Shown one piece after another: positions 6,769-51,251 of a DNA stretch of 64,000 bases. Source of the DNA: Fructilactobacillus myrtifloralis (GTDB lineage Bacteria > Bacillota > Bacilli > Lactobacillales > Lactobacillaceae). The notes beneath the pieces were generated by a model, which saw nothing but the letters and a program-made list of their open reading frames with translations, was not told the origin of the DNA and made no database searches. Where the stretch lies: contig NZ_CP097116.1 in the NCBI RefSeq assembly GCF_024029335.1, forward strand, positions 496,001-560,000, given 5' to 3'. The position numbers were made by a program, and so were the translations under genes. The stretch's first letter is position 1. The number at the start of each line of letters is the position of its first letter.

Positions 6769-7968
6769 ATGAAGCACCAATTACAAGTTAACTCAGAGAT
6801 TGGCCCCTTACGAACGGTCTTAGTGCACCGTCCCGGGGCTGAATTAGAAAACATCACTCCGGCTACCATGCAGGAGTTACTTTTCGATGATGTCCCCTTT
6901 TTGAAAATGGCGCAACAAGAACACGATCAGTTCACTGACCTTCTGCGTCAGCATCACATCGAACCAGTTTACGTTGAGCACTTGCTGACGGAGACTATAA
7001 CCGAGCCGACCCTTAAAACCGCGTTCATCGCCGCCTACCTCGCCCAATTTCCCCTTTCGCCGCTCCAAAAGCGAGAAGCCACTACCTATCTGGAAAAATT
7101 AGCGTCCCCTGCATTGACCACCACCATTTACGCGGGATTACGAAGTGCCACGGTCGGGTTGCCGGAAAACTACCAGCAACCGTTTCTCCTCCCACCCCTT
7201 CCCAATGCTTACTTTACGCGCGACCCCCAGGCTACGTTGGGAACCGGGTTCACCATCAATCCCATGACCTTTGCCGCCCGTAAACCGGAGTCCATGATCT
7301 TTGAGTGGATTGTTCAGCATCACCCGCGCTTTCAGACGACCCCTACCTGGCTATCCCCCACCATCCCAACTCATTTGGAAGGTGGAGACGAGCTAGTGCT
7401 TAATCGGCAAACGCTGGCCCTCGGGATTTCAGAACGCACCACCCGAACCGCCGCGTTGACGTTAGCCCAGCACCTCTTTACTGATCCGGCGTCGTCCTTT
7501 ACAACCATCATCGCCATTCAAATTCCGCACAACCACGCCATGATGCACTTAGACACCGTGTTTACGATGGTCAATCGCGATCAATTCACCATTTTCCCCG
7601 GTATCATGGACCACGATTACCGGTTAAATATTGAAGTGCTTCAACCAGACGGACACGGTGGAGTATCCGTTAAACGGGCCACCCACTTAAAACCCGTCTT
7701 ACAAGCAGCCCTCGACCTGAGTGAGATTGATCTGATTGAAACGGGCGGGGGCGATGCCATCGTTGCTCCCCGCGAACAATGGAACGACGGCTCGAATAAC
7801 CTGGCAATCGCACCCGGCGAAGTGATCACCTAAGACCGCAACTACCGCTCCATTCAGTTGATGCGTGAACACGGTCTTACCGTGCATGAAATCCCCTCCT
7901 CAGAACTAGCTCGAGGCCGGGGTGGAGCTCGCTGTATGTCGCAGCCGTTGTGGCGGGATGATGTCTAA
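6769..7968 (+). pseudogene. arcA: Arginine deiminase, interrupted by an in-frame stop codon
   Basis: Residues 1-354 are clearly arginine deiminase: SEIGPLRTVLVHRPGAELEN at the start, FTRDPQATLG near residue 149, HLEGGDE near 202, and GGGDAI near 325. The frame stops at TAA (7831-7833) right after GEVIT. Reading on in the same frame gives a further 44 codons that end the family perfectly: [11 protein letters not shown], then [20 protein letters not shown], stopping at 7966-7968. The conserved residue at the stop is normally Tyr, so a Tyr codon has become TAA. The catalytic cysteine (in GARCMSQPL) lies beyond the stop, so the truncated product should be inactive. No arcB, arcC or arcD is present beside it. 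Confidence 0.93.
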
Positions 7969-9251
7969 GTAGTTCCTTTTAAATCATTCATTTTTTTTGT
8001 CATAATTTTATCTTCATAAGATCCAAATTGAACTGCTAATGCTTTTCTTATTTCTTCTCTCCTAGAATCTTCTTTTAGTCCCCCATCATCTTTTTCACTT
8101 ATAAAATAATAATAATCTATCCGGTTAATGCAACCCACTGCTTCAGTAATGAACATCTTTATATCAACATCTGAGGCATAATCGTGTCCGATGATCGTGA
8201 TAGTAACATCATCACCTTCTTCAATATTTAAACTTTGTTTATCCTCAAAATAGGCATTCAAAGCATCTAAACTTTTATTATTATTTTGTTTTAATTTACT
8301 TCTAAGCCCAGCAATGTTCCCCTTGGGATCTTCAGCAATATTGTCTGTTGGTTTAAATGGATTTTTCATCATAAAGGCATCATCTATTAATTCTAAAAAA
8401 AATCGATATTGAGGATCATAATTATTAACATCTGGAAAAAATATTTCAACTAATTCTTTTTTTGATAAGTCTTTATACTCTTCACTTTGCTTTGCCCATA
8501 AAATAAACCTTTGGATTGATTTCATTGGCGATATCATATCTATGTGTATCTCCTCAGGATTTTCAGCTCTAACATCAGAAGATAAATTAACACTTTTATA
8601 TTGATAATCATCATTATCATATAAATTATTAAGACTTCGTTCTCCACTTTTTGGTACTTTATCAGGTGAATATCCAAAAACAAAGTCCTCATTGATAGAA
8701 CCATGAAAATAATTAATTTTTTCACTTGGAACGTTATAATTTTTTTCTAAAGTATCTGTATAATTAAATGTGATAATTTTATCCGCATCTTGCAAAATAG
8801 CTTCAATTTTATTGAATTTTATATTTTTATTCTCATTTTCCTGTTCCTTTAGATACCTTCTCAGCTTTTCTCTCCATCGATCTATTATTTTATTGTATTG
8901 CAAAGGTTTCTTTTTCCCATCTTTACCATCTCTATCATACTTATCATTAATATGTTTATATTCATAAAACATTGAATCTCTGAGAATGGTTTCTAGGTCA
9001 TACCAATCATTACCCCCTTGAACTTGATTGATATATTCATTAATTATCATTTTTTTAATCATATCTTCGTTATTTTTGGGGCTAACTAATTCTTCTATCC
9101 TAAAAATAATTGCTTCCCGTTTAATTCTTTCTAAAATATACTTATCCTTATAATCAAAAGTTTTTTCAACAAAACTCTTAAATGAAGTATCTAAGTCGTG
9201 CATCAAATCAAATCCGTTGCCAATAATAACAATATTTTTTCCCCTATTCAT
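7965..9251 (-). CDS. abiH: AbiH family phage abortive-infection protein
   Basis: The 428-aa protein shows the AbiH pattern: N-terminal [19 protein letters not shown] (residues 6-24), [12 protein letters not shown] (residues 81-92), the block [13 protein letters not shown] (residues 160-172) followed by [19 protein letters not shown] (residues 179-197), and a late [16 protein letters not shown] stretch. AbiH was described as a single-gene abortive-infection factor of lactococci; the mechanism is not established. The gene is far more AT-rich than both neighbours and its codons favour A/T, a sign of horizontal transfer. Its stop codon overlaps the arcA stop on the other strand. AGGAGC precedes the ATG. 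Confidence 0.87.
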
Positions 9252-16857: not shown

Positions 16858-17679
16858 TTAATAACCAGCCGGAAGCTTCCAGAAGCTTTGCTTGTTGTGA
16901 TCCTTCAGATATTGTTTAAATTCCTTGGAGTGGTAAGCCCTGTTAACTGCCTTCGCCCACTTCTGCTTCGAGCTCTTCTTATCCACAGCTGCAACGAGGT
17001 AGTAATCTGGTTTGATGTCTTCTGATAGTAACATCGTTTTTGTCGAAATCTTAGCTGGATAAGCCGTCGATCCCGGTAAGATTACGTACGCAAAGTCTGA
17101 TCGTGACCGCGGAATTTGCACGTCCTGCATTTCTTTAATCTTTAAATCATATTTTTTGGTAGCAATATCCTTACTGGTAGCTTTAATCGGATCAACTCCC
17201 GGTTTTAGCGTGATCCATCCGGCTTTAACCAGCACGTTGTAGGCCCGCGCCATGTTCGAGGGATCATTCGGAATGGCCACGGAATCCCCCTTCGCAACTT
17301 CCTTCAAACTGTGCTTTTGGGCGGGATAGATCCCGGTTGGCACCGTTGGAATCTTCGTTAACGCCGTCAAGTGAGCGTGTTTTTCGTGGTTAAAGTTGTT
17401 CATGTACGCGGTATGCTGATCCACGTTTAAGTCCGCTTCGCCGTTATTGATGGCGACATCCGCCAGGGACAGATCGCTAAAGGACTGGTTTTTTACCTTA
17501 TAACCCTCTTTCTCCAGAATCGGCTTCACGCCCTTTAAGAAGAGTTCACTGTAAGGACCCGGTGACGAAGCTAAGCGAATGGTTTTGGCGTCATCCTGCT
17601 TGGGTTTGATGATAAACGTAAAAATAAAGAGGATGGCAAACACCACCACGATGCCGCTAATAATGTACTTTTTCTTCAT
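16858..17679 (-). CDS. MetQ/NlpA family substrate-binding protein (membrane-anchored)
   Basis: The 273-aa protein matches MetQ-type binding proteins of methionine ABC transporters: ASSPGPYSELFLKGVKPILEK (residues 37-57), a DLNVDQHTAYMNNFN block near residue 83, IPTVPTGIYPAQKHSL near residue 108, and SVAIPNDPSNMARAYNVLVKAGWI near residue 132. The N-terminus is a long hydrophobic anchor without a lipobox cysteine; there is no Cys at all near it, so it is probably held by an uncleaved helix. No ATPase or permease gene is adjacent. The 350-base leader with two cysteine-containing small ORFs suggests regulation by cysteine supply and possibly a cysteine-related substrate. Confidence 0.85.
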   Translation of the reverse strand: MKKKYIISGIVVVFAILFIFTFIIKPKQDDAKTIRLASSPGPYSELFLKGVKPILEKEGYKVKNQSFSDLSLADVAINNGEADLNVDQHTAYMNNFNHEKHAHLTALTKIPTVPTGIYPAQKHSLKEVAKGDSVAIPNDPSNMARAYNVLVKAGWITLKPGVDPIKATSKDIATKKYDLKIKEMQDVQIPRSRSDFAYVILPGSTAYPAKISTKTMLLSEDIKPDYYLVAAVDKKSSKQKWAKAVNRAYHSKEFKQYLKDHNKQSFWKLPAGY

Positions 17680-17735
17680 AATCGTCCTTCTCCTTTGTTA
17701 GTTGCATTCTGACTAGCTTACTGTTAATACTGCTC

Positions 17736-17792
17736 CTAACAACTGCGACCACCGCGGTACTTCCCGCGTAACGCCACTAACCGCTGGTTCAT
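17736..17792 (-). CDS. Leader peptide 2 (uORF2), 18 aa, terminal cysteine
   Basis: ATG at 17792, preceded by AAAGGAG at a 6-base distance, encodes MNQRLVALRGKYRGGRSC and stops at TAG. The last sense codon is TGT. The bases around the stop (TTGTTAG) can pair with CTAACAA just before the metQ1 ribosome binding site, so ribosome position at the Cys codon could affect metQ1 translation. Confidence 0.5.
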   Translation of the reverse strand: MNQRLVALRGKYRGGRSC

Positions 17793-17810
17793 ACTTTACT
17801 CCTTTACAAC

Positions 17811-17858
17811 CTAAAAACGGACCACCATCAATTCATACCGATAGTGACCCGTTTTTAG
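17811..17858 (-). terminator. Attenuator-like hairpin in the metQ1 leader
   Basis: On the minus-strand RNA a 22-bp stem (with several G-U pairs) closes on a 4-base loop AUGA. The lower stem is CUAAAAAC/GUUUUUAG, so a 14-bp hairpin directly followed by GTTTTT acts as a potential intrinsic terminator between uORF1 and uORF2. Confidence 0.5.
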
Positions 17859-17967
17859 TGACCAGTAATGCTCTCCACGAAACCCGTGTAATTGTTCAAT
17901 ATGAATTTTCTCAAAAAATTCGGTTGCGTGCTTTAGCAATGAGAAAATTCAATCTTTTTCCCATTGA

Positions 17968-18006
17968 TCACGCTAATTTTGAACAACAACCTCGACTCAT
18001 AGACAT
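17968..18006 (-). CDS. Leader peptide 1 (uORF1), 12 aa, tandem cysteine codons
   Basis: ATG at 18006 encodes MSMSRGCCSKLA and stops at TGA (17968-17970). An AAAGGAG site lies 11 bases upstream, with a second in-frame ATG two codons later. The TGT-TGT-TCA codons lie in one arm of an inverted repeat, so stalling there would change leader folding. Confidence 0.55.
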   Translation of the reverse strand: MSMSRGCCSKLA

Positions 18007-18038
18007 AATTCGTGGAGCTCCTTTACTAATTTTTAATA

Positions 18039-18068
18039 AGTATACCACGAATGTCTCAACGAAACCAA
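18039..18068 (-). promoter_or_regulatory. Promoter of the metQ1 leader
   Basis: On the minus strand an extended -10 TGGTATACT (hexamer 18039-18044) and a -35 TTGGTT (18063-18068) are 18 bases apart. It overlaps the 3' end of the small membrane ORF upstream. Confidence 0.55.
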
Positions 18069-18231: not shown

Positions 18232-19092
18232 CTATTTTCGTAAATAACTCACTGGTTTTTGCACTTCAATCTTCGTACCATCAAATTCATGACGAATGTA
18301 TTTTTGAACCGGTTTACTGTGGTAGATCTGCAACAACTTTTGATATTTTTGCCGTTGTTGCTTAGAAGCCGTTTGTGCGGTGGCCAGCACGTTAATGTTT
18401 GCTTTGGTCGACTGATTAACCTGTTCGTGCGCTAACGAATCCTTCAAAACGTTGAGATGCCCCTCTAACGCAATCGTATTACTAATCAAGGCAGCGGCCA
18501 CCTTCTGATCCTTAATTACCCGGGGCCCAGTCGTATCATCAATTTCTTGAAACTTAAACTGATGCGGATTACTTTGAATCCCATTGAGGCCGGATAGATC
18601 ACTAAAGTTCGGCTTCAACGTAATTAACCCCACTTTGGCTAATAGTTTTAGCCCGCGCGCCGTGTTGGCCGGGTTATCAGCAATCGCAATCGTACTACCA
18701 TCCGGAATCTGCCCCAGTTTCTTATACTTAGTGGAATAAATTCCTAACGGCTCTAAATACGTGGTTCCGATTATGCTCAACTGATTGCGCGGATTCTTAT
18801 GATTGTACGCTTGTAAATACGCATCAGACTGAAAGGCATTCACGTCAATCTTTCCCTGAGCAGTCGCCGTATTTAACGCCACCCCATCGGTAAAACTTTT
18901 AACCTGTACCTTGAGATGAGCCCGCTTAGTGGCCGGTTGCTTAGCAATATAATTCCAAATTTTAGCGTCCGAACCAATCGTCCCCAACGTGATTTCATCC
19001 TTTTGAGTCTGGGCATGCCCCCAAAAGGTCCACACTCCCAACGCCACTACGGCTAAAATTCCGATTCCGACCAAGATTTTGCTTTTTTTCAT
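18232..19092 (-). CDS. MetQ-like substrate-binding protein, second copy
   Basis: The 286-aa protein shares the NlpA/MetQ pattern with the 16858 gene: EITLGTIGSDAKIWNYIA near residue 33, IDVNAFQSDAYLQAYN near residue 82, TTYLEPLGIYSTKYK near residue 109, and TIAIADNPANTARGLKLLAKVGLI near residue 132. Like the other copy it starts with an uncleaved-looking helix (residues 6-25) and has no lipobox cysteine. It is the fourth gene of the Met T-box operon, so methionine or a related sulfur compound is the likely ligand. No transporter ATPase or permease lies in the window; both binding proteins must use one encoded elsewhere. Confidence 0.85.
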   Translation of the reverse strand: MKKSKILVGIGILAVVALGVWTFWGHAQTQKDEITLGTIGSDAKIWNYIAKQPATKRAHLKVQVKSFTDGVALNTATAQGKIDVNAFQSDAYLQAYNHKNPRNQLSIIGTTYLEPLGIYSTKYKKLGQIPDGSTIAIADNPANTARGLKLLAKVGLITLKPNFSDLSGLNGIQSNPHQFKFQEIDDTTGPRVIKDQKVAAALISNTIALEGHLNVLKDSLAHEQVNQSTKANINVLATAQTASKQQRQKYQKLLQIYHSKPVQKYIRHEFDGTKIEVQKPVSYLRK

Positions 19093-19128
19093 GGATATGC
19101 TCCCTTCTAGTTAGTACCAACTTTTGAA

Positions 19129-19905
19129 CTAGTGGAAACGCATCCCCCCGTCAATCAAAATTGATTGGCCGGTGATGTAATCAGCTTGAGGCGAAGCTAG
19201 AAAGGAAACCACGTTTGCAACGTCTGCAGGCGTCGCAGCCCGTTTTAAGGCAATTTCATTAACCACACTTGCTCGTTGCTCAGCAAAGGTCCGCTGCTTT
19301 AAGTTTGCCGTTGTTTCATCAATTCCATCTCGGAGCGAAGTCAACACAATTCCTGGGTCGTAAGCATTCACAGTAATCTGATCTGGAGCTAATTCTTTTG
19401 CGGCTGACTGCCCTAGTCCCCGAATCGCAAACTTCGAAGCTGAATATGCTCCTTGCAGCGCTGAGCCTTCTACTGATGCTAAGGAAGCCGCATTAATGAT
19501 CTTACCCCCTGTGCCTTGGCGTTTAAACTGCGTTGCCGCGGCTTGAATTCCCCAAAAAGTGCCTAACAGGTTCACATTCAAGAGGCGCTCAACCTCCTCT
19601 GGATCACTATCGATGATTGAGGCAATTATCGCAATCCCCGCATTATTAACGAACAAGTCGAGTCGCCCCCAGTCCTGCACCACTTCATCGACTAAGCGAA
19701 AGACCTCATCGCGCTTAGCAACATCTACAACGTACGCGCGCGCCGTTTGCCCTGCATTTTGATTAATGGATTGTGCGACTTGATCAGCTGTTTGGGGATC
19801 AATATCTGCGACCGCAATCGCATACCCTTCCCCGGCAAGCTGGTTAGCAATTGCAGCTCCAATCCCCCGACCACTCCCAGTAATAATTGCAACCTTCTGT
19901 GTCAT
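19129..19905 (-). CDS. SDR oxidoreductase, diacetyl/acetoin-reductase-like
   Basis: The 258-aa protein has TGSGRGIGAAIA (residues 10-21), NNAG (residues 87-90), the Ser in NAASLASVEGSAL near residue 139, YSASKFAIRG (residues 155-164), and NAYDPGIVLT near residue 186, close to the NAY.PGIV stretch of acetoin/diacetyl reductases. The C-terminal YITGQSILIDGGM is typical. It sits between the metE-like gene (three bases away) and metQ2, an odd place for such an enzyme. Its real substrate in this operon is unknown. Confidence 0.85.
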   Translation of the reverse strand: MTQKVAIITGSGRGIGAAIANQLAGEGYAIAVADIDPQTADQVAQSINQNAGQTARAYVVDVAKRDEVFRLVDEVVQDWGRLDLFVNNAGIAIIASIIDSDPEEVERLLNVNLLGTFWGIQAAATQFKRQGTGGKIINAASLASVEGSALQGAYSASKFAIRGLGQSAAKELAPDQITVNAYDPGIVLTSLRDGIDETTANLKQRTFAEQRASVVNEIALKRAATPADVANVVSFLASPQADYITGQSILIDGGMRFH

Positions 19906-19907
19906 CC

Positions 19908-21038
19908 TTAATCCTCCTGTTGATCAGGCCAAATTTGGTTGGCCGTCTGAATCACTAGTTTAATTTTGTCCCATTGTTGCGCTTCGGTCAGATGGTTTCC
20001 TTCCTCCGTTGAGGCAAACCCACACTGAGTGCTTAACCCTAAGCGGTCTAAGTCCACGTACTGACTAGCTTCTTTAACCCGTGCTTGTAACGTCTCTTGA
20101 TCTTCCAATTCAGGCCGTTTTGAAGTTACCAAACCCAACACCACGTTTTTATTATCAGGAACCTCTGCAAGCGGTTGAAAATCACCAGAACGGTCATCAT
20201 CAAATTCAAGGTAGTAATTGGGTACGTTTTCTTTAGTAAACAGCGTCTTGGCAACCGGTTGGTACCCTCCTTGCGCTGCCCAGGTTGAGGCGTAGTTCCC
20301 ACGGCAAACGTGGGTGCTTGTCCGTAAGTCAGCAGGCAAGTTCTCAAGGGCTGCGTTGTTAAAGGCCACATACTCCTGCTGTAACTGTTCAATATCTTCG
20401 GCTTGATCCGTCATTAGCTTCCAAAAATCATGATCTGCTAACATTCCCCAGGTACAATCATCGAGCTTCACATCCCGGCAGCCGGCATCGTATAACGCCA
20501 ACAATAAATCCCGGTAAGCGGTCCCAATGTCATGAACTAAGTCCTGGTGATTTGGATAATATTTGGCAACCGCTGCGCTGTTTTCTGGTCCCCGAACCAG
20601 TTCGGCATATAATTGTGCTGGTGCAGGAATGCTTTGGCGGGCAGTAATCCCCGGGTATTGTTGCACAACCGATTGCAAATACCGAAAGGCCTGTAAATCT
20701 GGGTGCTGCGGATTAAAATTAATTTTTCCATCCACCTGGGCTGAATCGTTCCGGGTTTCAACCCCATGAAACTGATAACCGTGAGCTTGATGGGTATGTT
20801 TAATCCCATCAAAGCCCCAAAAGGTATCTAAATGCCAATAACTCCGCCGAAATTCGCCGTCGGTAACCGTTTTTAATCCTACTTGAACTTCCTTGGCCAC
20901 CAAATCAGCAATGGCTTGGTTCTCAACCGTTGTGAGCTCCTCCCTACTAAAGCTTCCCGCTTGGTGTTGGGTCCGGGCTTGTTTTAACTGGGCGGGGCGT
21001 AAGAAACTCCCCACAATATCAAAATGAGTGGTTGTCAT
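19908..21038 (-). CDS. MetE C-terminal-type homocysteine S-methyltransferase (YxjG/YxjH-like)
   Basis: The 376-aa protein resembles the short Bacillus YxjG/YxjH methyltransferases (about 378 aa), which correspond to the catalytic half of cobalamin-independent methionine synthase. It contains DIVGSFLRPAQLKQA (residues 8-22), TDGEFRRSYWHLDTFWG near residue 59, KLDDCTWGML near residue 193, and the zinc ligands in STHVCRGNY (near residue 244) and LSTQCGFAST (near residue 341). It should make methionine from homocysteine in the cytoplasm; the methyl donor is uncertain. It follows luxS, whose reaction releases homocysteine. Confidence 0.88.
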   Translation of the reverse strand: MTTTHFDIVGSFLRPAQLKQARTQHQAGSFSREELTTVENQAIADLVAKEVQVGLKTVTDGEFRRSYWHLDTFWGFDGIKHTHQAHGYQFHGVETRNDSAQVDGKINFNPQHPDLQAFRYLQSVVQQYPGITARQSIPAPAQLYAELVRGPENSAAVAKYYPNHQDLVHDIGTAYRDLLLALYDAGCRDVKLDDCTWGMLADHDFWKLMTDQAEDIEQLQQEYVAFNNAALENLPADLRTSTHVCRGNYASTWAAQGGYQPVAKTLFTKENVPNYYLEFDDDRSGDFQPLAEVPDNKNVVLGLVTSKRPELEDQETLQARVKEASQYVDLDRLGLSTQCGFASTEEGNHLTEAQQWDKIKLVIQTANQIWPDQQED

Positions 21039-21050
21039 AATTCTATCCTC

Positions 21051-21524
21051 CTAAATTAACTTGCGTACGTATGGGTCAGTACTGATTCCTTGCGCTAAGA
21101 TGGTGCGTGCCCACTCCTTAGCTGAAAATAACGAATGGTCCCGGTAGTTACCACAACTGAATTGATCCACACCCTGAACGTCTGACCATTCTACTTGGTC
21201 TCGAATTGCTTCTAAGGAACCCTGTAAGGCTTCGGCAACGGTCGTCGTCGTGGGCGTTCCCCACACAATCAAATGAAAGCCGGTTCGACATCCAAACGGT
21301 GAACAATCAATTACTCCTGGGATCCGGTCCCGCAATAAGCCGGCCAAGAGATGTTCAATCGTGTGCAAGCCCGCCGTGGGAATTGCATTTGCATTCGGTT
21401 GGACCAGTCGTAAATCAAAATTGGAAATGACGTCTCCCTGCGGTCCCGTTTCCTGTGTAATTAAGCGTACATATGGAGCGTGCACCTTAGTATGATCTAA
21501 CGTAAAACTTTCTACCTCTGCCAT
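21051..21524 (-). CDS. luxS: S-ribosylhomocysteine lyase
   Basis: The frame opens upstream, but the ATG at 21524 follows a GAAAGGAG site and gives the usual 157 aa. The metal-binding HTIEH (residues 54-58) and the later Cys in [10 protein letters not shown] are present, as is the active-site Cys in [10 protein letters not shown]. LuxS cleaves S-ribosylhomocysteine to homocysteine and DPD, the AI-2 precursor, in the activated methyl cycle. It is the first gene of an operon with a homocysteine methyltransferase, an SDR and a MetQ-like protein, behind a T-box leader. Confidence 0.95.
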
Positions 21525-21592
21525 GTCTAAAACTCCTTTCAAGTTCTGCCAATCAACCGTCACAATTAAATGAGTTAAAAAAGCGGAGCAAT

Positions 21593-38912: not shown

Positions 38913-41144
38913 TTAAATACTTATTAAATGAGGTTTTCCACTTATAAGTATTGTTTTTTTGTATTTGCTTACATCTTTAATAAATAAAATTTTCAAATCT
39001 ATACCATTGGATTTCAAATCTTTACACAAACTATATAACCCTAAACAAGATAGAAAGGGTAATTTTTCAGAAATTTTGTCGGCTTTTTTATCCGTTATAA
39101 TACCCAAAACATAGCAAACATTATTATTTTCAAAATTTAAAGATTGCTTCCCCCCTAGTCTTTTAACCCATTTGCCACCTTTTTTATTTATAAAATTTTT
39201 AACTCCATCTTTTTCATTATTAACTACTTCTGATGAAGACCTAACTTGGTTAAGTAAATGACTAAATCCATTACCGCTAACACCGATTTTATTACAAATA
39301 AAATAAAATTTATTTTCATTATTTCCATAATAAAGCCAATCACAGATTTCAATTTTGGTTATTTTGCCATTATTATTGTATGGTTTACAATCCAAATTTA
39401 AAATTTCGCCAGAACTGTTTTCATAAATAATTTTATTGTAATTATTTTCACTAAAAGTTTTCTCATTACCATTACTTCTTAATTTTTTTGTATAATCCAA
39501 AGCATATTTTATTTTAAAATCTCTAATTCTATTAACATATTTGAATACTCTTTGTATAAATTCACTTGTAAATTTATACCATTTTCCATCTATAAGTAAA
39601 TATGTATATTCATTGTCTTCATAAAAAAATTGACAACAATTATAAACAAAAGTATATTTACTTATACTTTTATTATTTGAATCATATTCACTTATTTTTA
39701 AATTTTTCAATATAAATGTTAAGGGATTATAAAATTTAATATCAAACTTCACTTTTATAGGTTGCATAATTTTTGTATTTTTTTCTACAAATTCACTAAC
39801 AGTTTTATTTAAAACATTATTTTTAATATACAAATTAAAGATTTTAATTTTTTTATCTTTAATTTTTTTATCTTTAATTGAAGAAATTTTTTCTTCAAAT
39901 TTTTTATTAAAATTTTCACCAAAAAAAGGTAAGTCTGATAATTTTTTTCTAAAAATATCTTTAAAAATATCTTTAAATAAATCATTATTTAAATTATCAA
40001 ACAATTCATTATCAATCTTAACAATCTTTATTTTATTTTTATCCTCTTCATCTTCTTTTTCATAAATATATGAAAGTTTATTTCCATCAACGATATTACC
40101 ATCAATAAAAAATCCCTTTAAAAATGATTCAAATTTATCTTCCTGATCTTTAGTTTCTCCTAATTCCTTTAATTCATTATTCCATGAAATATTTTCAGGT
40201 TTTGATTCTGATTCTATATGACTTATTCTATCAATAACATTTAAAGCATCAACAAAAGATTCAAAACGCGAAGTAATATTCAAAAACTTCCCATTTTCTA
40301 TTAAAATATCAAAATCCTTGTTATTACTTTTAACAAACTTTGAGTATATTTCATATTTTTCAGAACCCTTCTTATTTTCATCTCTCTTTTTTTTATAAAA
40401 TTCTCCCAATTTTTTACATTTACCACCTGAAAAGGTCACATTCCCTGTCATCTTTTTTGCCAAAAATGGTATGTCATCATCTACTATTCTAGAAACAGGA
40501 ATATATTTATTATCAGTTGTTTTTTTATTATTTTTTATAAATGGATATTCAGAAAAATCAATTGCTGAAATATTTTTTAAATCTTCAACTGATAAAACCT
40601 TCCTGATAATATTAATGGGAAAATTTTCACAAATATCTTCATCATTTAAAAAACCAATTCCATTACCAAAAGAAATTGCATAGATATTATTATTATCCTT
40701 ATCTCCAATAATTATTAAAGCATCATATTTTATTTTTCTAAGATCAAAATCCTTACCAATAAAATCGAAAAAATCATCTTTCCATCCAGGGAAAAGAGGA
40801 AATTCTTTTTTCAAAAAGAATTTTCCATCATAACCATTTAAAGACTTAATTCTGTTATTAAGATCTCCTTCAATCAATTGGTAATTACCATTATTTATGT
40901 TAATAATTCTTATAATGTCGTTAACAGAACTATTTATTTTTTCTTTATCTTCAATATTTTCTTTTATGTCCTCCAACTTTTTTTCAACATGTTGAATATA
41001 TTCATAAGTATTTTCATCTGAAGTATTTTCATCTGAAGTATTTTTATCTAAATATTTAATATATCCTTCTTTAAGATAATATCTATAATCTTTAATTTGG
41101 CGTTTTTTCAGCTTACAAAAACTTATCTTCTTTTTTTTAATCAT
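38913..41144 (-). CDS. DUF6119/TIGR04141-like sporadically distributed protein
   Basis: The 743-aa protein is larger than the usual family size (about 500-600 aa). Two blocks match my memory of the family. The N-terminal third has DALIIIGDKDNNNIYAISFG, GFLNDEDICENFPINIIRKVL and the later MTGNVTFSGGK. The C-terminal third has YLLIDGKWYKFTSEFIQRV, KIEICDWLYYGNNENKFYFI and SHLLNQVRSS. Members occur patchily in bacteria, often near mobile or defence genes; no mechanism is established. The gene is extremely AT-rich and Lys/Asn/Ile-rich, unlike trpG before it and the ABC genes after it. Short in-frame repeats (TSDEN twice, KDKKI twice, FKDIF twice) suggest slippage. Function unknown. Confidence 0.68.
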   Translation of the reverse strand: MIKKKKISFCKLKKRQIKDYRYYLKEGYIKYLDKNTSDENTSDENTYEYIQHVEKKLEDIKENIEDKEKINSSVNDIIRIININNGNYQLIEGDLNNRIKSLNGYDGKFFLKKEFPLFPGWKDDFFDFIGKDFDLRKIKYDALIIIGDKDNNNIYAISFGNGIGFLNDEDICENFPINIIRKVLSVEDLKNISAIDFSEYPFIKNNKKTTDNKYIPVSRIVDDDIPFLAKKMTGNVTFSGGKCKKLGEFYKKKRDENKKGSEKYEIYSKFVKSNNKDFDILIENGKFLNITSRFESFVDALNVIDRISHIESESKPENISWNNELKELGETKDQEDKFESFLKGFFIDGNIVDGNKLSYIYEKEDEEDKNKIKIVKIDNELFDNLNNDLFKDIFKDIFRKKLSDLPFFGENFNKKFEEKISSIKDKKIKDKKIKIFNLYIKNNVLNKTVSEFVEKNTKIMQPIKVKFDIKFYNPLTFILKNLKISEYDSNNKSISKYTFVYNCCQFFYEDNEYTYLLIDGKWYKFTSEFIQRVFKYVNRIRDFKIKYALDYTKKLRSNGNEKTFSENNYNKIIYENSSGEILNLDCKPYNNNGKITKIEICDWLYYGNNENKFYFICNKIGVSGNGFSHLLNQVRSSSEVVNNEKDGVKNFINKKGGKWVKRLGGKQSLNFENNNVCYVLGIITDKKADKISEKLPFLSCLGLYSLCKDLKSNGIDLKILFIKDVSKYKKTILISGKPHLISI

Positions 41145-44844: not shown

Positions 44845-45927
44845 TCAATTATTACTATAAGGATGCATTTCCCTATAAAAGGATTCATTATAATTTTCTT
44901 TTAAATAAGCAGCTACATTATCATCGTCAGAATAAATAAATTTTCGATTAATCCCCATCAAATTAAGTTGTTTCATTATTTTAGCTTTTTTACTAGCCGG
45001 AATATTCATTTTAACAGCTGGTATAATTGGCTGAAAGTCCCCTATTTCATCATCTACACCTTCTCTTAATTGATAAATAAATAATCCTTGTTGATTTTTC
45101 ATTCGATCAAAAATAATTGTTGGTTTAACTAACAAGTACTTAAGACTGGGGAAATACATTCCATTTTCCATATTCATACCAATTAATGAGAATGTTAATC
45201 CAATAATTGGATCGAACCTTTTACTTATTTCTTCCGACCGTGAATAATTTTTATTCTTTATTTGAGATAAAAATTTATTTTTACTATAACTAACTTTTGC
45301 AAGTTCTGGATACTTAATAGAATATTCATTCCAGACTTTTTCACTTTCATCTTGGATTTTAAAAAAGTCTGAATCTTGAAATAAATAATAAGTAAATTGA
45401 TTAGATTCTTCCATTAAATCCTTTTGAATCATACTATCATCAATATCTTCAAACCATCTAAAAAAAATATGTTGCTGTGATATATCTTGTGAATATAACT
45501 TTTTTGTTAAATCTCTATATGGACTAGAATAGAATTGTCTTGGATAAAGATTATCATCTTTAATTGAATTACTAAATAGATACAAAAAACCATCTTCTTT
45601 TGGATTAGAATCACAAGCAAAGTACAATGCCACTAATGGATTAGCTGTAATATCAAGTAATTCTGTTGGTAAACCATGATGTTGCGAATACGATAAAAAA
45701 TTTTCTATTTCCTTTTGTGTAAGGTTTCCGCCAACTTCTCTAAAAAATTCTTTTCTTAAATTAAGTAAATCAACAAACGTCTTTTTATTATCAACCATCC
45801 AACGGTAACCACTAGCTAGATTTTTAGTTATACCATAATCTTTTGACTCACCACGAAAATACCAGTGATCATCGTATTTATCATCAATGAGTGTAATAAA
45901 ATCTTGTAAACTTTTAATTTCATCCAT
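44845..45927 (-). CDS. FRG domain-containing protein
   Basis: The 360-aa protein has the FRG domain in its first ~110 residues: DDHWYFRGESKDYG (residues 19-32), then FLSYSQHHGLPTELLDITANPLVALYFAC (residues 77-105), matching the family core (FRG motif and QH.GLPT.LLD..NP..ALYFA). The rest is unassigned. FRG proteins are patchily distributed and often near defence or toxin genes; the biochemical role is not settled. The gene is AT-rich and divergent from a small TIR-like gene across a 157-base promoter region with a perfect inverted repeat, so the two probably form one unit. Confidence 0.82.
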   Translation of the reverse strand: MDEIKSLQDFITLIDDKYDDHWYFRGESKDYGITKNLASGYRWMVDNKKTFVDLLNLRKEFFREVGGNLTQKEIENFLSYSQHHGLPTELLDITANPLVALYFACDSNPKEDGFLYLFSNSIKDDNLYPRQFYSSPYRDLTKKLYSQDISQQHIFFRWFEDIDDSMIQKDLMEESNQFTYYLFQDSDFFKIQDESEKVWNEYSIKYPELAKVSYSKNKFLSQIKNKNYSRSEEISKRFDPIIGLTFSLIGMNMENGMYFPSLKYLLVKPTIIFDRMKNQQGLFIYQLREGVDDEIGDFQPIIPAVKMNIPASKKAKIMKQLNLMGINRKFIYSDDDNVAAYLKENYNESFYREMHPYSNN

Positions 45928-49530: not shown

Positions 49531-51251
49531 TTAAAGTTTCTCACCTGTTACTTCTTTAATACTACTTATCCATTTTCCCTTTGATTTATAAAAAACCTCA
49601 TAATAAGCATCAATAACTAATGAAGCAAATTCTTTTGCATCATCTTTAGGAAAGTCAACTGCATATTTATTATAGTGAGCACCTGCAATATTCCTTGAAA
49701 AAATAAAATCATCTAAATTTTCATATGTTTCTTTGGCTGGAGTTTTTTTCATTTTCTTTAGAATACCTTTCCATAAATCTCCAATTGTATACTTATCATC
49801 TTTTTTTCTTTCGACTCCTGAATGAATGATCTTACTTAAATTATCACACAAATATTCCAACATATATCCAGCTCTTGAACAAATATCATGTGCATCACCA
49901 GTATTAATTGTTTCTTTTAGTTTTTCATCGTAATTATTAATACCACTAGAAATATGAGGACCATCTAAAAGATTCCAGTTTTCAATTTCATATTTTATCA
50001 ATTGCTTATTATGATTTATAAATAAATTTATAAGATCTTCTTTCCATAATTTATCATGAGTTGTTATTATAAATTGCCAATCACTAAAACGTTTTATAAG
50101 ATATCGAAAAAATTTAAACCTAATATTTGAGTCTATACTCTGAAATATATCATCTATCACTAATACTTTGCTTTGTCCGTCAAACTGCTTTTTATATATA
50201 AATTCAAAATATAGTATTAATGCAAGCAAATCAAGATTTCCCTCTGAAAAATATTTTTCTGGATCTGCTGTAGAACCATTACTTAGTGTAAGTTTAAATT
50301 TTAGTGAAATACTTGTTTGAGTAGCAACATACACAGTAATTTTTTCTACGGATTTTCTTGATGGTGAAATTTTTTTAAATATGTTCGTAATTTCTGGAGA
50401 AATATCATTCATAATTTTTTTCAATCCTTGAAATTTATCATTACTTTCCTCCATAATTCTTTTATATTTATTTTCTATTTGCTTTATTTTATTGTTACAA
50501 TTTTTAATTCTTCTGTAAAGATTACATAAAATTTTAATTTCCCTATATTTTTTGATATTTTTTTTCTTTAAATCTAAAAGTTGTTTTATATTTTCTTGTT
50601 CATTTATTTTTGAAACTAAATTATCTGTTACCTTTAATTTTTCATCTTTATAATTAAATCCATAATGTTTACATACATAAAATAAACGCTTATTTCTTTT
50701 TTTCTTAAGACGTAATCTTTTTGATCTAAGTTTACCTAATCGTTCTTGCTCAGTAAGAGGTATATAACCTATATAATTTTTTTTATTAGAAAATGGAATA
50801 AATACTTTTAATCTTTCAACAGAATCTAAATTCCAAAATTTAATAATATCACGTCTTCTTAAAACCAAGGGAGCATGGCAAAATTCTGGAATAGAAACAT
50901 TTTTATTATTTTTTATTCCATTCTGCAAAGTAATGATTTTTAACTTTCCATCATTCAATAAGCAATTTTTGCTAACTTTTTCATCATTATCAAAATCACA
51001 AAATATTTTTGTCTCCGAAGATAAGTTAACTTTAGATTTAGAATTATAAATCCAACTACCATACTTTTTATCCCTCATATTATGTACGGTTCCTTGAGTA
51101 ATAAATTCTATTGCATCTAAAAAACTGGATTTTCCAGTACCATTATCTCCGTAAAGCAAAATAGATTCTGGTCTTGAATTTTTAACAAAATTTATTTTTT
51201 TGTTTTAGAAATTCCTCGAAAATTAGAAACAGACAATTTATTAAATTTCAT
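49531..51251 (-). pseudogene. ABC-type AAA ATPase (RecF/SMC-like), frameshifted at an A7 tract
   Basis: An ATG at 51251 behind AGGAGA starts MKFNKLSVSNFRGISKTKK and then stops. The next frame continues INFVKNSRPESILLYGDNGTGKSS, the Walker A, so one A is missing in the A7 run (plus-strand T7, 51195-51201). The rest (542 codons) has a coiled-coil-like Lys-rich middle, a signature-like SEGNLDLLALILYFEF, Walker B KVLVIDDIFQSID, the His switch in ITTHD, and a C-terminal helical domain. ATPases of this type occur in many defence systems, usually with a nuclease; no partner is next to it. Very AT-rich. Slippage could restore the full product. Confidence 0.75.

Follow-up and report, generated by a model that had tools for sequence, protein, structure and literature searches.

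The window analysed here, a 64,000-nucleotide stretch of the 1.46-Mb genome of Fructilactobacillus myrtifloralis, raises the question of what controls metQ1, a gene for a MetQ/NlpA-type binding protein that is preceded by a leader with two small open reading frames (ORFs). A preliminary description of this DNA had read the leader as a ribosome-mediated attenuator that senses cysteinyl-tRNA. We found support for that reading in all 11 homologous leaders, in covarying hairpins, in a predicted structural switch and in the TcyP-type gene that stands downstream in three of the leaders. On these grounds, all of them computational, metQ1 is very probably controlled by a cysteine-responsive, ribosome-mediated transcription attenuator.

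Both of the small ORFs described earlier, each with a Shine-Dalgarno (SD) site and cysteine codons, were located (Table 1), as was the 22-bp stem resembling an intrinsic terminator between them. The three inverted repeats reported as perfect and nested are nested, but only two are perfect and the third matches at 91%. Thermodynamic folding, proposed earlier as a check, showed the leader RNA to be far more stable than its dinucleotide shuffles (z = -4.93; 0/100 as stable). The transcript is expected to start near 18032, which fits the position of the TATACT box. Upstream of the leader, the minus strand carries luxS, a metE-like gene, an SDR gene and metQ2 in a single run (window 18232-21563).

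Table 1. Elements of the metQ1 leader and its surroundings (window coordinates), with the terminator of a Lacticaseibacillus paracasei leader in the last row
Element	Position	Strand	Detail
Leader between metQ2 and metQ1	metQ2 19092-18232, metQ1 17679-16858	-	
Extended -10 box TATACT (TGN before it)	18039-18044	-	Kept with downstream AATTAGTAAAGG in the 5 closest leaders
SD of uORF1, AAAGGAG	18018-18024	-	
uORF1, predicted leader peptide MSMSRGCCSKLA (then stop)	17968-18006	-	Tandem TGT TGT at 17988-17983
P0, uORF1 SD/start region 18017-18009 with 17881-17873	17873-18017	-	Inverted repeat 9/9
P1, Cys codons 17986-17976 with segment 2 17902-17892	17892-17986	-	Inverted repeat 91%
H1 hairpin, uORF1 stop codon in or beside the 5' arm	17926-17973	-	Local hairpin energies, covariation
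X:segment 2 helix, 17951-17940 with 17913-17902	17902-17951	-	Inverted repeat 12/12
Predicted antiterminator, segment 2 17907-17896 (AATTCATATTGA) with terminator 5' arm and loop 17841-17830 (TCGGTATGAATT)	17830-17907	-	
Intrinsic terminator hairpin, T run inside the 3' arm	17811-17858	-	22 bp in the MFE fold
uORF2, predicted 18-aa peptide MNQRLVALRGKYRGGRSC (then stop)	17736-17792	-	TGT is the last codon; SD 17805-17799
uORF2 end TTGTTAG 17742-17736 with CTAACAA 17701-17695 beside the metQ1 SD	17695-17742	-	
metQ1, orphan MetQ/NlpA-type binding protein, 273 aa, no Cys	16858-17679	-	SD 17696-17690
L. paracasei cysK2-ctl1-cysE2 5'-UTR terminator			GGGCGCGAA/TTCGCGCCC; after the Cys-run ORF in plasmid copies

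The 11 homologous leaders comprise eight in Fructilactobacillus, standing before metQ1, and three in two other genera (g5 and g54), standing before the gene of a TcyP-type cystine symporter instead. In a DNA search of 60 genomes, four of the nine other members of the genus had the leader. With a profile of uORF2, 10 matches at E ≤ 5.4e-6 were obtained among 350 family genomes (next best 0.0073): seven genus members including the window's own genome, two of the 12 genomes of g5 and one of g54. The eleventh leader (G005) has a uORF1 reading MKTCCCCMSK and a terminator without uORF2; as printed, it is identical to the leader of F. sanfranciscensis. The closest named relatives of MetQ1 are those of F. 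sanfranciscensis DSM 20451 (84%) and F. florum DSM 22689 (80%). Among the nine metQ1 orthologs of the genus, eight follow the leader, and none was found before the ortholog of G006 (59% identity). The symporters were named through annotated relatives; the NCBIfam matches included no model specific to TcyP. The G249 protein shares 55% identity with an Enterococcus L-cystine transporter (by annotation) and 44% with an E. coli protein annotated tcyP, while the G157 and G180 proteins share 71-73% with the one from G249.

The cysteine codons of uORF1 are its most constant part. Cysteine accounts for 0.46% of codons in 40 genes of the window, and on both strands of the 64 kb only two SD-led ATG ORFs of 5-41 codons contain adjacent cysteine codons, uORF1 among them. 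By predicted translation, uORF1 has an SD and 2-4 consecutive cysteine codons in 11/11 homologous leaders, as in MKMCCCLISV, MKMCCCFMSKK and MACCCSSFLS from relatives; the rest of the peptide varies while the tandem codons are retained. In all 10 leaders with uORF2, it lies about 200 nt upstream of uORF2 and has two or three such codons in a row. An alignment of relatives had been suggested earlier as a check on the uORF codons and on covarying stems; for the codons, the Cys-run uORF1 and the terminator are kept in every homologous leader. A 10-position profile of uORF1 worked at the noise limit, mixing true and false matches (best E 0.0165) and missing G005, G007 and G008, and an NCBIfam search with padded peptides returned nothing for uORF1 or uORF2.

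For the stems, covariation bore out the terminator and the hairpin at the uORF1 stop codon (H1), but not the antiterminator. A terminator hairpin with a T run is predicted in 11/11 leaders (-16.8 to -25 kcal/mol), as are a local H1 hairpin (-10.5 to -17.4 kcal/mol) and, on energies alone, a P0-type duplex in the corresponding place (-21.3 down to -7.0 kcal/mol, the last in G249). Across H1 and the terminator, 83% of cells were paired, against at most 51% in slid controls, and the covariation score, with the effect of kinship left in, was 0.444 against 0.264 (sd 0.028; 0/500 shuffles as high). Changes on both sides of a pair fall mostly in the terminator (9 pairs) and less often in H1 (3). Between uORF1 and the terminator lies segment 2, with the core ATTCATATTGA or a variant of it, which has three possible partners: the cysteine-codon region (P1), the upstream strand X and the 5' arm of the terminator. 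RNAalifold by itself predicts the X:segment 2 helix. The P1 and antiterminator duplexes exceeded all 500 shuffled sets in mean strength; when species were swapped among eight representatives, P1 was matched by 1 of 1002 permutations and the antiterminator by 78 of 1002. In the antiterminator, 84% of cells were paired (at most 45% in slid controls), and its covariation was not significant (68/500 shuffles as high). Since few of its pairs have changed on both sides, covariation speaks neither for nor against it.

To model the effect of ribosome position, the ribosomal footprint was masked in transcripts ended near the terminator loop. With the footprint of a stalled ribosome alone masked, the antiterminator formed in 6/11 leaders, the window's own not among them, and a second run was similar; with the RNA 5' of the ribosome masked as well, it formed in 9/11, now including the window's own. 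When H1 was held, which assumes that H1 folds first, the stalled state gave the antiterminator in 11/11 leaders, against 7/11 in the same run without H1 held. It formed in 1/11 with the ribosome at the stop codon and in 1/11 with no ribosome, the exception in both cases being G007, which folds to the antiterminator even with a ribosome at the stop codon. The stalled-minus-free change in terminator-arm pairing was 11.9, against 3.5 (sd 1.0) when the sequence from stop codon to terminator was dinucleotide-shuffled (0/40). These models predict that antiterminator and terminator exclude each other and that ribosome position sets the choice, a prediction that weakens without H1 held. They support, in silico and short of proof, a mechanism of the trp type.

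Under this mechanism, a shortage of Cys-tRNA would stall the ribosome on the cysteine codons of uORF1, so that H1 could form and segment 2 would be left free to pair with the 5' arm of the terminator, and metQ1 would be transcribed. With ample Cys-tRNA, the ribosome would reach the uORF1 stop codon and break H1, strand X would take segment 2, and the terminator would form. Were uORF1 not translated, segment 2 and the flank 3' of it would pair with the SD and cysteine-codon region of uORF1 (P0, P1), and here too transcription would end. Upon read-through, uORF2 would be translated.

uORF2 follows directly after the terminator in 10 of the 11 leaders, with the consensus MNxxLVxLxGK[YHF]RGGx[SAT]C. 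Among seven representatives, pS is 0.79 (near saturation) and pN 0.21, giving a pN/pS of 0.27 in frame (0.82 and 1.34 in the other two frames) and of 0.07 over the GKYRGG codons, while the flanking DNA on both sides is about 30% identical in an ungapped comparison. The in-frame ratio therefore indicates that uORF2 is selected as a peptide. Its cysteine is the last codon in 7/10 leaders; in G001, G249 and G008 the frame runs on for another 2, 3 and 7 codons. In searches beyond this group, uORF2 was found in only the window's own genome, G008 and G249 among 395 genomes of the order, and in only the own genome, besides two weak matches inside longer frames, among 348 genomes of the class. The G005 leader lacks it, so that uORF2 does not belong to the constant parts of the attenuator. 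Translation of uORF2 upon read-through would add a function at the peptide level. We tentatively suggest, at somewhat less than even chances, that uORF2 represents a new family of cysteine-sensing leader peptides, whose nascent chain would arrest or release the ribosome at the cysteine codon and so place, after the terminator, a second control point on cyst(e)ine uptake on top of a transcription attenuator that reads the same amino acid.

The alternative that survives best also centres on uORF2. Translation attenuation there, alone or on top of the attenuator, would have the uORF2 end mask the next start until a stall at the cysteine codon unmasks it. The bases at the uORF2 stop can indeed pair with CTAACAA beside the metQ1 SD, as described earlier, and a pairing of at least 6 bp between uORF2 end and the start region of the next gene is predicted in 6/10 leaders (G000, G007, G008, G249, G157, G180). 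Its mean length over the set is 5.5 pairs; after shuffling of the downstream DNA it is 2.7 (sd 1.0; 0/60 as high). Single leaders are unremarkable, however: in the six with the pairing, 2 to 12 of 60 own shuffles were as high, so that no leader stands convincingly above its own shuffles. The pairing is weak or absent in the other four (G003, G004, G001, G009), and the pairing sequences differ between leaders. With a stall at the uORF2 cysteine codon, mean exposure of the start region rose only from 0.46 to 0.52, and exposure of the SD hexamer was mixed, rising by more than 0.1 in four leaders, falling by more than 0.1 in four and staying level in two. The G005 leader has no uORF2 at all. The pairing is thus partly supported, and we consider this account rather unlikely; a translational layer of control at the start of metQ1, additional to the transcription attenuator, is possible.

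The next explanation to be weighed is that the leader is a T-box, a SAM riboswitch or another known riboswitch instead of a leader-peptide switch. T-boxes often serve lactobacilli as amino-acid sensors, and in other genera they do occur before tcyP at some loci. A tcyP search gave 35 match places, of which 30 loci were read (five were without loci). An SD-led ORF with adjacent cysteine codons lies upstream of tcyP at 17 of these 30; three of the 17 are the homologous leaders, and the others belong to several unrelated sequences. No such ORF was seen at the remaining 13 loci (for L131 and L123 the upstream DNA is short or missing), and Rfam identified a T-box at one (L130) of the 12 ORF-less loci scanned. 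By eye, L120 and L132 also have the T-box motif AGGGTGGTAACACG. The two genomes concerned combine both arrangements, with a T-box at tcyP and a Cys leader ORF at a cysK-ctl-type operon (G151, loci L120 and L139; G240, loci L132 and L141). The UGGU in the L120 and L132 T-boxes presumably fits a tRNA with A73, such as that for methionine, rather than tRNA-Cys. In the window itself, as the absence of a T-box core from the preliminary description would lead one to expect, no credible Rfam family was found in the leader. At the gathering score the only match in the window was a tRNA elsewhere, the leader being without RF00230, and relaxing the limit to E 10 yielded, for the leader region, only sub-threshold matches to eukaryotic mir-427 (E 0.016, on the terminator hairpin) and snoZ30a (E 9.6). 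Together with tandem cysteine codons that persist while the remainder of uORF1 changes, this makes a known riboswitch very improbable. Equally improbable is that the hairpin, which does sit between metQ2 and metQ1, is a mere terminator of the metQ2 operon with small ORFs arisen by chance, given that in G007 the run luxS-metE-SDR-metQ2 is missing directly upstream of the leader and metQ1, that promoter box and SD are conserved and that uORF2 shows purifying constraint.

With a cysteine-responsive attenuator as the preferred reading, the substrate of MetQ1 comes into question. The protein matches the MetQ/NlpA family, which is named for methionine, and the solved structures closest to it are those of lipoproteins, for example 3gxa and 3ir1. 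We agree with the earlier designation as an orphan, because the sole NIL-domain match of the genome lies far from metQ1. tcyP occurs in 34 of 345 family genomes; of the 10 genomes of the genus, exactly one, G002, has it, and the same genome alone lacks a metQ1 ortholog. There, tcyP is preceded by a Cys leader ORF of its own (MTKLNFKIQLACCCTCYML) and a terminator; a short ORF, MCTYSSK, with an SD-like site was also seen by eye after this terminator (L118), in the place of uORF2 and unrelated to it in sequence. In two g56 genomes, tcyP directly follows, at a distance of 12 nt, a gene that by eye resembles metQ2; in the window, the leader and metQ1 occupy this position. Because metQ1 exchanges with tcyP in this way, the favoured ligand is cystine, cysteine or a related sulfur source, and MetQ1 may help to take up one of these. 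Cysteine as the sensed amino acid fits the function of tcyP and of cysK-ctl-cysE by annotation of relatives; for metQ1 a fit is suggested by the gene exchange. The low cysteine content of MetQ1 was rejected as further support: 9/9 orthologs have no cysteine, but neither do 15 of 40 window proteins.

Cys-run leader ORFs also occur at cysteine synthesis genes. In L. paracasei FAM18149, cysK2-ctl1-cysE2 is repressed by cysteine, with a log2 change of -2.9 to -3.2 between methionine-deficient and cysteine-deficient conditions; its 5' UTR has high coverage and a terminator formed from the GGGCGCGAA palindrome, with an antisense RNA at the 3' end, and the authors found neither a T-box nor an S-box and describe the mechanism as 'yet to be discovered' (PMC6004538). 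In plasmid copies of the operon, we found an SD-led ORF, M(M)SQSMFNAINCCCRTTRFWRCSAC, ahead of this terminator; the L. rhamnosus version begins MTQSMF. The peptide recurs at 90-100% identity in 32 plasmid records, all from Lacticaseibacillus, and no gene is listed under it in any row of their gene table, which is incomplete. In the plasmid copies from L. paracasei and L. rhamnosus (L134:1500-2068, L135, L136), the terminator hairpin behind the Cys-run ORF coincides with the palindrome AAAGGGCGCGAA-N-TTCGCGCCTTTT, which has been cited as a potential regulatory motif before lactobacillar cysteine genes. In L. fermentum, a leader ORF, MTNVFTKQAVCCCGARQLRGSTLWRSLKRG, and a terminator precede a cysK homolog. 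Close ctl homologs (63-69%) were present in 5 of 8 genomes searched, all with a CCC-containing SD-led ORF 1.1-1.3 kb upstream, which we take to sit ahead of cysK; none was found at ten other ctl-like loci (41-48%), of which L142, L145, L146 and L150 were anchored on another frame. Ribosome-position folding gave no support in L. paracasei, where the stop state paired more (11-19) than the stalled one (10.9), and leaned the right way in L. fermentum (11 vs 1-6) and for the tcyP leader of G002 (9-16 vs 8-10). In view of these mixed results, we claim only the anatomy of ORF plus terminator for these three.

Attenuators of the trp, his and ilv operons combine a short ORF carrying a run of the sensed codon, alternative helices and an intrinsic terminator before the gene. 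The metQ1 leader shares these parts and differs in the amino acid that it would read (cysteine), in its Lactobacillaceae host, in the three partners of segment 2 and in a second peptide ORF past the terminator. An attenuator of this type is that of ilvB1 (PMC13236596). In Actinobacteria, Cys-run leader ORFs before cysteine genes are described for mycobacteria, P. acnes cys and B. longum cbs, where no conserved terminator was found (PMC1262725). For M. smegmatis, translation attenuation is reported, and the title of Canestrari 2020, as cited in PMC13236596, calls such ORFs leaderless. The metQ1 leader has the same run of cysteine codons in a short ORF but, unlike the mycobacterial case, an SD and a predicted terminator and antiterminator. 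Ordinary leader peptides within Firmicutes are represented by the predicted histidine leader peptides before hisS/hisZ in Bacilli, which replace a T-box (PMC2965389), and by the leucine-rich attenuator peptide of S. aureus (PMC5794164); these concern other amino acids and genes, and no second peptide ORF is mentioned in the parts available. The L. paracasei cysK2-ctl1-cysE2 5' UTR shares the terminator and, in plasmid copies, a Cys-run ORF before it, in a sequence unrelated to the metQ1 leader. The preliminary description knew of no such attenuator in lactobacilli, and none turned up in the open-access literature searched, which leaves most subscription papers outside. Leader-peptide attenuation is classical; for the cysteine version in Lactobacillaceae and the conserved second peptide we found no description within that literature.

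If this reading is correct, some members of a large bacterial family found in food and the gut sense cysteine supply through leader peptides and not by T-boxes alone, at cystine import as well as at cysteine synthesis. It would offer a testable answer to the published question of how cysteine switches off L. paracasei cysK2-ctl1-cysE2, and a substrate clue for orphan MetQ-type proteins of a family named for methionine. It also exposes uORF2 as a conserved 18-aa peptide that matches no NCBIfam model.

Several minor observations concern the MetQ-type proteins and their surroundings. MetQ1 and MetQ2 both contain no cysteine, hence no lipobox; an uncleaved N-terminal helix as the anchor of both would be our guess. 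Leaderless relatives of metQ1 (L046, L061, L047) stand beside genes assigned by eye to M20-type amidohydrolases, and at L047 also beside genes for an ABC ATPase and permease (by eye); this setting hints at uptake of an N-acylated sulfur amino acid. Elsewhere in the window, ORFs that by eye are possibly defence-like lie amid metabolic genes at 7965-9251, 38913-41144, 44845-45927 and 49531-51159.
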